Origin: Candidatus Nomurabacteria bacterium
Lineage (GTDB): Bacteria; Patescibacteriota; Minisyncoccia; Phycocordibacterales; UBA9973
Assembly: GCA_943354645.1 (NCBI GenBank)
Contig: CALRCO010000003.1
Coordinates: 1-32,865 of the forward strand
Length of the DNA: 32,865 nt
Direction: 5' to 3'
The position numbers and the translations under genes are program-made. Below, piece after piece: positions 723 to 17,814 of this stretch; within the stretch, counting starts at the first letter, position 1; each line of letters opens with the position of its first letter. Below the pieces are notes generated by a model, which was not told the origin of the DNA, ran no database searches, and saw only the letters and a program-made list of their open reading frames with translations.

Positions 723-759
723 GAGATAAAGTATATCAAAATTAATGTGTGTCGGAAAC

Positions 760-858
760 GGACTTGCCCGCAGCTAAAATTTCGCCGACGCTCAATTTTG
801 CTTGGGCACCGCCTCGTGATTTTTCGAAACGAAAAATAACACTCCGGCGTTCAAGTCC
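760..858. repeat. tRNA-adjacent structured repeat, copy 1
   Basis: Shares TGGGCACCGCCTC..GATTTTTCGAARCGAAAAATAAC..TCCGGCGTTC with 17472-17580; stems covary between the copies. Confidence 0.7.
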
Positions 859-891
859 GCACGCATACAATGCAGATTGCATGCTTCGACC

Positions 892-932
892 GCGCATATG
901 AAAAATCACCACAATTGTGGTGATTTTTCATA
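892..932 (-). terminator. terminator-like hairpin 3' of tRNA-Asp
   Basis: CATATGAAAAATCACCACAATTGTGGTGATTTTTCATATG near-perfect palindrome. Confidence 0.6.
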
Positions 933-935
933 TGC

Positions 936-1009
936 GCGAGCGATGGGACTTGAACCCACGACCTCTCCCGTGACAGGGGAGCGCTCTGAACCAGCTGAGC
1001 TACGCCCGC
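936..1009 (-). tRNA. tRNA-Asp(GTC)
   Basis: Reverse complement GCGGGCGTAGCTCAGCTGGTTCAGAGCGCTCCCCTGTCACGGGAGAGGTCGTGGGTTCAAGTCCCATCGCTCGC folds as a cloverleaf; anticodon loop CTGTCAC. Confidence 0.95.
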
Positions 1010-13636: not shown

Positions 13637-14395
13637 ATGGATCACATTTCTCCTGCGAATATTAAGTTGGTTGTCTTTGATATAGATGGCACGCTTGCAC
13701 CAAGTAAAAGCCCTGTTGAGCACGACATGGCGTTGTTACTCGCACAATTATTGAACAAAAAATTAGTTGCCGTTATGTCAGGTGGTTCTTATAAGCAAAT
13801 TAGTGAACAATTTGTTGCGTCGTTACCTACAGATATCGATTACAAAAATCTATTTATTTTTCCAACGTGTGGGACAAGTATGTATACATTTGAACAGGGA
13901 ATATGGAAGGAACGATATGCAGATCATTTTGAGAGTGAAGAAAAAAAGATGATTATGGATGCACTTAAACAAGCACTCGATGGAGCAGGATACGTACAAC
14001 CAGCGCAAATATTTGGGGAGATTATCGAAGACCGTGATTCACAGATTACTTTTTCTGCACTTGGTCAATTAGCACCGCTTGATTTAAAATCTACATGGGA
14101 TCCAGATCGATCAAAACGCGCGCATATTATCGAACTCCTTCAATCAAATATCCCAGGATTTGAAGCACGAATTGGTGGGACAACCTCTATCGATATTACT
14201 CGCACGGGGCGTGATAAAGCATTTGGTATTGACGCAATTGTCCGCGAACTCGGTGTACCTATTTCCGAAATGGTTTTTGTCGGCGATTCTCTCGGTGCTG
14301 GTGGAAATGATGAGTCCGTGAAAAAGACAGGCATCGCTACTGTCGCCGTTGCTGATCCTGATGAGACCGCTGTGTTTATCAAAACATTTTTGTAA
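13637..14395 (+). CDS. HAD-superfamily IIB hydrolase, eukaryotic-type phosphomannomutase-like
   Basis: VVFDIDGTLAPSKS, MSGGSYKQI, ITFSALGQLAPLDLKSTWDPDRSKR, VFVGDSLGAGGNDESV. Confidence 0.85.
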   Translation: MDHISPANIKLVVFDIDGTLAPSKSPVEHDMALLLAQLLNKKLVAVMSGGSYKQISEQFVASLPTDIDYKNLFIFPTCGTSMYTFEQGIWKERYADHFESEEKKMIMDALKQALDGAGYVQPAQIFGEIIEDRDSQITFSALGQLAPLDLKSTWDPDRSKRAHIIELLQSNIPGFEARIGGTTSIDITRTGRDKAFGIDAIVRELGVPISEMVFVGDSLGAGGNDESVKKTGIATVAVADPDETAVFIKTFL

Positions 14396-14404
14396 AACAT
14401 ATAA

Positions 14405-14447
14405 AATTAAAAAGAGCGGCGCCCTACGGGCGCCGCTCTTTTTAATT
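14405..14447. terminator. bidirectional terminator, 20-bp perfect stem
   Basis: AATTAAAAAGAGCGGCGCCC-TAC-GGGCGCCGCTCTTTTTAATT. Confidence 0.9.
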
Positions 14448-14477
14448 ATTTAAAGCGTTTCAAGAATGCTTTATTGT

Positions 14478-15416: not shown

Positions 15417-15457
15417 ATTAAAAAGAGCGGCGCCCGTAGGGCGCCGCTCTTTTTAAT
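15417..15457. terminator. bidirectional terminator, exact reverse complement of 14406-14446
   Basis: ATTAAAAAGAGCGGCGCCC-GTA-GGGCGCCGCTCTTTTTAAT. Confidence 0.9.
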
Positions 15458-15467
15458 GGTACAGCTA

Positions 15468-15620
15468 TTATGCTGCCGCTTCTTCCTTCACTTCTTCTAC
15501 TGGTGCAGCAACTTCTTCAGTTGCAACAGGAGCAGGATGTGCACAGTGTTCACACACCATAACACCGTCTACCATTTTCATCTCATTTCCACATGTAGGA
15601 CACTTTGTTGTTTCTTCCAT
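15468..15620 (-). CDS. 50-aa zinc-ribbon protein
   Basis: MEETTKCPTCGNEMKMVDGVMVCEHCAHPAPVATEEVAAPVEEVKEEAAA (CxxC...CxxC). Confidence 0.75.
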   Translation of the reverse strand: MEETTKCPTCGNEMKMVDGVMVCEHCAHPAPVATEEVAAPVEEVKEEAAA

Positions 15621-17422: not shown

Positions 17423-17471
17423 AAAATGATTCAGAATCTGCCTATTGTCGATTTTCTTTGCAAAGCTGGGA

Positions 17472-17580
17472 GACTAGGGGTCGCCCGCGACTAAAACTTT
17501 TTCGTCAAAAAGTTTTGTCTGGGCACCGCCTCACGATTTTTCGAAGCGAAAAATAACGTTCCGGCGTTCGAATCCTAGTC
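17472..17580. repeat. tRNA-adjacent structured repeat, copy 2
   Basis: GACTAGG..CCTAGTC outer stem; shared core TGGGCACCGCCTC..CGATTTTTCGAAGCGAAAAATAACG..TCCGGCGTTC. Confidence 0.7.
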
Positions 17581-17635
17581 GCGAGTGAAGCAGTTCACTC
17601 GCTTCCCGCAGCAAAATAAGCATCGCTTATTTTTG

Positions 17636-17706
17636 CTGCGGGACTAGGATTCGAACCTAGATGACACGATTCAGAGTCGCGTATCCTACCATTAGATGAT
17701 CCCGCA
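17636..17706 (-). tRNA. tRNA-Gln(CTG)
   Basis: Reverse complement TGCGGGATCATCTAATGGTAGGATACGCGACTCTGAATCGTGTCATCTAGGTTCGAATCCTAGTCCCGCAG; anticodon loop CTCTGAA. Confidence 0.93.
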
Positions 17707-17814
17707 ATATTTAATCAAACCATTTATGAGGTAACCGAAAAATTGTGATCCTGTAATATTTTTGACTCACTTACTCTACATTATTTTCAGGATTTTTCAA
17801 CTTGGATATATAAA

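Follow-up and report, generated by a model that had tools for sequence, protein, structure and literature searches.

Small folded non-coding cassettes behind tRNA genes of Patescibacteriota carry edges that match the neighbouring tRNA

Small folded non-coding cassettes of one family lie behind tRNA and tmRNA genes of Candidatus Nomurabacteria and related bacteria, and their edges match whichever tRNA they adjoin. The cassettes share a fold, a location and a fixed left edge; they stack in tandem, are present at some loci and absent from others, and their cores have spread between tRNA types. We read them as mobile cassettes that insert in the tRNA or tmRNA gene at T-loop position C56|R57, leave the gene whole and take their edges from the target, with copying or template switching to maintain the match. 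We give this reading a probability of about 0.58.

Two copies, at tRNA-Asp and tRNA-Gln, occur in the window, the whole 32,865-nucleotide stretch of DNA analysed (Table 1); they are 77% identical over 93 nt. The initial annotation had reported a 15-nt antisense match between the second copy and the T-arm of its tRNA. The match is exact: GTTCGAATCCTAGTC at 17566–17580 of the plus strand recurs as the identical 15-mer at 17642–17656 of the minus strand, so that the two form an inverted repeat. The 10-nt counterpart described at tRNA-Asp (GTTCAAGTCC) is likewise there, at 849–858. Three features had been absent from that account: the acceptor strand of tRNA-Gln is mirrored too, at 17604–17611; positions 17472–17478, at the far end of copy 2, hold an extra direct copy, CCTAGTC; and the terminal stem of copy 2 consists of two tRNA-derived pieces paired with each other.

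Table 1. Features of the two cassette copies in the window and of their host tRNA genes
Feature	Position	Strand	Basis
tRNA-Asp(GTC), host gene of copy 1	934–1009	-	ARAGORN and Rfam RF00005
Copy 1, hp1 palindrome (895–934) and A′ (887–894)	887–934	-	sequence
Copy 1, hp2	863–884	-	sequence
Copy 1, A″; 10 of 13 positions match the tRNA-Asp T-arm, 849–858 exactly	849–861	-	sequence
Copy 1, core: P3 (766–809) and P2 (811–848)	766–848	-	R1 match, 109.3 bits
Copy 1, DR (AAGTCCG)	759–765	-	sequence
tRNA-Gln(CTG), host gene of copy 2	17635–17706	-	ARAGORN and Rfam RF00005
T, tRNA-Gln positions 57–73, the segment mirrored and repeated downstream	17636–17652	-	sequence
Copy 2, hp1, palindromic terminator-like hairpin directly 3′ of tRNA-Gln; stem extends into the acceptor strand	17612–17635	-	sequence and folds
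Copy 2, A′, inverted copy of tRNA-Gln acceptor 66–73 (CTGCGGGA)	17604–17611	-	sequence; family statistic
Copy 2, hp2, small hairpin with CTG-type loop at the acceptor/T-stem boundary	17581–17603	-	recurs in most copies
Copy 2, A″, 15-nt inverted copy of the tRNA-Gln T-arm plus two acceptor bases	17566–17580	-	sequence; permutation statistics
Copy 2, P2 core hairpin (GCC-GGA-...-GA-GGC)	17528–17565	-	covariation
Copy 2, P3 core hairpin (GUGCCC-A-GAC...GUC-GC-GGGC)	17483–17526	-	covariation
Copy 2, DR (..CCTAGTC), a degraded direct repeat of the tRNA-Gln 3′ half that forms P1 with A″	17472–17482	-	sequence; intact DRs in relatives

Read in tRNA sense, the order is the tRNA, the terminator-like palindrome hp1, the inverted acceptor A′, hp2 at the acceptor/T-stem boundary, A″ as the inverted T-arm (positions 53–65), the core hairpins P2 and P3, and finally DR, a direct repeat of the tRNA from position 57. 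Both hp1 and A′ are missing from a distant family, f82, and the minimal unit is thus hp2–A″–core–DR. A tRNA-like structure with A′ as its 5′ acceptor strand was dropped as a general model, given these f82-type copies.

BLAST recovered further copies in the same genome, most of them near a tRNA, and copies in 14 of 41 genomes comprising this one and its relatives. A covariance model, R1, matched in 85 of 120 genomes of the taxonomic family and, patchily, in 31 of 381 genomes across the phylum, other classes included. The core, of ~80–95 nt, folds into a three-way junction within a cassette of about 100–130 nt. Across 103 distinct copies, 33 of 34 pairs changed on both sides (covariation score 0.687, against 0.204 for shuffled and at most 0.113 for slid alignments); fitting to R1 inflates this count, and an unfitted MAFFT alignment already gave 27 of 34 double-sided pairs. 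In the core, G-U pairs outnumbered A-C on the tRNA-sense strand by 53 to 14, and by 18 to 7 in the 60 best copies, a count that the model may bias. This excess, together with conserved A-rich unpaired bases on the same strand, is moderate evidence against a gene on the antisense strand with a tRNA-like 3′ end, a candidate that we set aside. No family in Rfam 15 exceeded its gathering cut-off for the element: a scan of the window returned SSU rRNA, tRNAs and an L10 leader, and a sensitive scan of 17440–17720 added to the tRNA nothing other than weak chance matches. Phages, plasmids and viral contigs contained no match to the cassette.

Nearly all copies lie downstream of their host gene and on its strand, the hosts being tRNAs for nearly all amino acids as well as tmRNA. 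A consensus T-arm was found within 300 nt upstream on the same strand for 80 of the 103 copies; most of the others sit behind a tRNA with an unusual T-loop, at a locus or contig edge, or behind another copy. About 13 copies have no adjacent tRNA. Two of these orphans, of Glu type, lie on the same strand as a tRNA-Glu 8 and 13.5 kb upstream (G084 and G071), with a large serine recombinase encoded between; such islands account for these two cases alone. Stand-alone sRNA genes were dropped as a candidate once these 'orphans' proved to be separated from tRNA-Glu by islands. The islands between tRNA-Glu and the displaced cassette (L253, G084:C1:287300-296400; L254, G071:C8:152500-166900) carry, besides large serine recombinases, cargo that includes an NgoPII-type restriction endonuclease with a C5 methylase, glycosyltransferases and a 1005-aa caspase-helicase fusion.

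The direct repeat has one sharp and one variable edge. Its left edge falls at T-loop position 56/57, and never further left, in the 45 copies measured; its right edge lies mostly at 72–77, with a full range of 69–119, frequently coincides with the tRNA 3′ end, and takes in the whole terminator in L195. Many repeats are degraded. The clearest copy, at the tRNA-Arg of a genome of the same genus (G001), has a DR that is perfect over 19 nt and, behind it, a second terminator; the same tRNA-Arg lacks the element in G000, but the neighbourhood there is rearranged. At the tRNA-Val of G001 (L153), AAGT stands in the T-loop and in A″ but GAAT in the DR and in the tRNA-Val of G000, which is what a replacement of the tRNA 3′ half upon insertion would look like. 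Behind a tRNA-Gln(TTG) of G000 (L033, G000:C30), a second tRNA-Gln 3′ end (TTCGAATCCTTGTACCCCA) lies ~100 nt downstream with no cassette core, possibly an old attachment site.

We then asked whether the edges follow the neighbouring tRNA, as the initial annotation had proposed for the terminal stem. For the 28 tRNAs recovered from the genome, the longest inverted matches between each tRNA and its own downstream DNA summed to 200, against 169 ± 6 for permuted pairings, and none of 20000 permutations did as well; for direct matches, 22 of 20000 did. Across 73 copies from many genomes, the five T-stem nucleotides that lie outside the universal GTTCRANTC fitted the neighbouring tRNA with z = 13.4, acceptor positions 66–73 with z = 16.0, the variable T-loop bases with z = 9.9 and the direct repeat with z = 20.9, none of 5000 permuted tRNAs reaching the observed fit in any of the four comparisons; the copies come from related genomes and are not fully independent, which makes the z values descriptive. 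Unusual T-loops are mirrored as well, in L160 (GTCAGCAC), L121 (a tRNA-Met, GTGCAAG) and L203 (GTCCGAG). The proposal thus stands with the universal T-loop consensus discounted, at z of 13–21 for T-stem, acceptor and direct repeat, and the lack of correlation beyond that consensus which would have spoken against it did not appear in the 73 copies. The match to the neighbouring tRNA is neither chance nor the universal consensus.

The cores follow a different pattern. The nearest relative of a core came from the same genus in 47 of 90 cases (null 11.5 ± 3.5), from the same genome in 16 (null 3.3 ± 2.0) and from the same isotype in 10 (null 6.7 ± 2.8). Cores 98–99% identical stand behind different tRNAs with different, locally matching edges; in G001, for example, the tRNA-Lys and tRNA-Leu cores are 99% identical and each carries the edges of its own tRNA. 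Cores and edges therefore have separate histories, which is the central result of this analysis. Orthologous tRNA loci lacking the element, which the initial annotation had suggested seeking, exist within one genus: at tRNA-Ala, L213 and L214 are empty and L210 holds a relict element, with the downstream gene engB common to all three, although the clean empty-site pair, L210/L213, rests on a relict cassette class without an R1 score. At the tRNA-Ala of other species, R1-type copies, different core classes or tandem arrays occur. Tandem arrays consist of unlike cores, and in them the older, decayed copies lie further from the tRNA. Gene conversion of standing cores could mimic such movement; the empty loci and the tandem stacking favour insertion. 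The data are assembled genomes; none of the copies in them was observed in the act of moving, and an excised form is not known.

Stacked or extended copies at a single tRNA (L064, L126, L178, L179 and L195) hold a displaced older tRNA 3′ end in their distal part. A second core class (GGACGAGAAAACCTT...AAGGTGTACTG...CTCGCGGTCCTG) bears the same T-arm edges at tRNA-Ala in genus g21 (L204, L205, L216, L220, L221 and L223), and L223 is a tandem array whose cassettes are separated from one another by T-stem palindromes.

The initial annotation had left two mechanisms side by side, the first being insertion or recombination templated on tRNA 3′ ends. This one fits best, given the sharp DR edge at 56/57, the tandem copies, the presence and absence at tRNA-Ala and the movement of cores between tRNA types. 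In the mechanism that we propose, a core of ~80 nt would move and insert at C56|R57 in the T-loop of a tRNA or tmRNA gene, an inference that we prefer to gene conversion among elements already in place. Insertion would duplicate the tRNA 3′ half, and the target would serve as template for the inverted arm, either then or subsequently, through snap-back synthesis or through quasi-palindrome template switching that involves T and A″ and would homogenise the arms at the DNA level. The product, in tRNA sense, would read: tRNA 5′ part, positions 57–73 with a short trailer (often a terminator), hp2, A″, P2–P3, and positions 57 onward again as the DR.

DNA-level copying fits the matched arms. Template switching creates, maintains and repairs perfect stems (PMC8794818), and quasi-palindrome mutations occur in E. 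coli (PMC7202029). Quasi-palindrome template-switch mutation rewrites one arm of an inverted repeat so that it is perfectly complementary to its partner (PMC8794818, PMC7202029), as would be needed here; it is a mutational process, not a mobile element, and we invoke it solely for keeping the inverted arm matched.

The second mechanism of the initial annotation, a cis antisense regulator of tRNA 3′ maturation, would act in the fraction of transcripts that run past the terminator: A′ and A″ would hybridise to the tRNA 3′ half and so prevent its maturation, with the core as sensor or switch. When the read-through RNA is folded in silico, 21–22 of the last 24 tRNA bases do pair downstream, which would sequester the tRNA 3′ half, and where the DR is intact the acceptor re-forms with it. 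The covariation of the core agrees with such a role, and its moderate G-U preference hints at RNA-level selection on the tRNA-sense strand, against the mobile-cassette reading. A″ also tracks the tRNA rather than the DR, agreeing with the tRNA at 92 positions where the two are discordant and with the DR at 14, although choosing the A″ window for its similarity to the tRNA biases this count the same way. Departures from T:A″ complementarity, however, comprised 17 G-U, 11 A-C and 53 other pairs, with no clear G-U excess, as compared with 39 G-U and 2 A-C in tRNA acceptor stems, and RNA-level pairing is hence not an evident constraint. Occurrence is patchy per tRNA and per genome, the cores go with the genome and not with the tRNA, hp1 and A′ are missing from f82-type copies, and a terminator-like hairpin stands between the tRNA and the element. 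We consider a regulator unlikely.

An intron-like RNA would draw on the same geometry. The insert, from position 57 to the end of the core, would be excised from tRNA transcripts at 56|57, or reverse-inserted into them, with A″ as a splint across GUUC|RANUC in the manner of a group I guide sequence, and would then be reverse transcribed. A″ could pair with the sequence on either side of the junction, the right edge of the DR is often the tRNA 3′ end, and the predicted folds of L154, L178 and L195 pair the 5′ acceptor strand with the DR acceptor, which makes the element a T-loop insert. Against this, neither group I, group II nor any other Rfam family matches, the DR is too degraded in many copies to yield a tRNA, so that excision is not needed, and the reverse transcriptase (RT) family had no match in the rich carriers G013, G004, G009 and G011. 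These points make an intron-like origin quite unlikely.

A search for a partner enzyme gave no candidate tied to the cassette. Y1 transposase, RT and large serine recombinase occur widely in the taxonomic family, yet each is missing from some rich carriers. Y1 transposase (PF01797) occurs in 84 of 120 family genomes, with no match in G013, G009, G011, G003 or G058; Cas1 was found in none of 11 carrier genomes; and G009, 100% complete and with five copies, had no match for Y1, RT, large serine recombinase or Cas1. All four were rejected as partner, each being absent from some or all carriers. A tyrosine recombinase was present in all 11 carriers tested, as exactly one match in 10 and as split pieces in G024. 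By analogy with integron cassettes, a folded single-strand cassette might be moved by this single Xer-like enzyme, the newest copy landing nearest the tRNA; the order in tandem arrays, where cores differ and the older ones lie decayed at a greater distance, would agree. Since all bacteria are expected to have such an enzyme for chromosome resolution, finding it does not tie it to the cassette, and a recombinase alone leaves the rewritten inverted arm unexplained; we regard this reading as very unlikely.

Least probable is a host-beneficial 3′ trailer or terminator inherited with each tRNA gene, its edges following the tRNA by ordinary co-evolution: the element is present at many tRNAs and palindromic terminators also stand behind tRNAs without it, but the cores cluster by genome and genus rather than isotype, and the sharp DR edge, tandem copies and empty orthologous loci speak against it.

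Returning to mobile cassettes, we compared them with known kinds, which they resemble (short palindromic repeats and tRNA-3′-end elements) while failing, as far as testable, the defining features of each. Like REP/BIME and MITE-like non-autonomous repeats, they are short, non-coding, folded, multi-copy, patchy and often clustered. REPs are given, in the part of the source available, as 20–40 bp with GTAG or CGTC tags (PMC3733652), and by that description a ~100-nt cassette that forms a three-way junction, always lies at T-arms and has edges copied from its target is not a tagged 20–40 bp palindrome; for Y1 enzymes, present in 84 of 120 family genomes, several carriers had no match. As with casposons and other tRNA-3′-end integrators, the target is the 3′ end of a tRNA gene, part of which is duplicated: the tRNA is intact upstream and its 3′ half recurs at the far end as the DR. 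Casposons are large, with terminal repeats of their own and a 14–15 bp target-site duplication over the tRNA end only (PMC6977970). The cassettes, in contrast, have no terminal repeats of their own, carry an inverted target copy, begin in the T-loop, duplicate from 56/57 to 69–119, and had no Cas1 in 11 carriers. Transposed tRNA introns of the archaeal Thermoproteales are also nearly identical inserts at non-canonical positions in different tRNA genes and need a bulge-helix-bulge at their junctions (PMC4090602). None was apparent by eye at 56|57 in the predicted folds of the cassettes, and here the tRNA is complete upstream of the insert. Integron cassettes (attC) use GTTRRRY-type core sites and IntI; by inspection the cassette junction is GTTC|RANTC, not GTTRRRY, and most carriers have one Xer-like tyrosine recombinase. 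The literature searched held no description of the family or of its inverted and direct tRNA-edge pattern.

tRNA genes are classic landing sites of mobile DNA, and to our knowledge the elements that target them bring fixed ends and fit one tRNA. We suggest, tentatively and at less than even odds, that the cassettes form a novel class of mobile element that has no ends of its own: a folded ~80-nt core that enters the universal T-loop of any tRNA or tmRNA gene, takes at insertion inverted and direct arms templated by the 3′ half of its target, stacks next to the tRNA, and possibly passes through an RNA or single-strand intermediate pairing across the T-loop junction. If mobile cassettes are the right reading, landing on nearly every tRNA and on tmRNA with local edges would need target-templated end-making, or else would show fast, repeated homogenisation of inverted repeats at the DNA level. 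One core behind many tRNAs would provide ready natural replicates. The cassettes also add a structured RNA or DNA family to a hard-to-culture phylum, whose tRNA 3′ regions are busy sites, where large serine-recombinase islands land too. Apart from the cassettes, the window holds a near-identical GC-rich terminator palindrome twice, at 14393–14452 and 15417–15470, ~1 kb apart.
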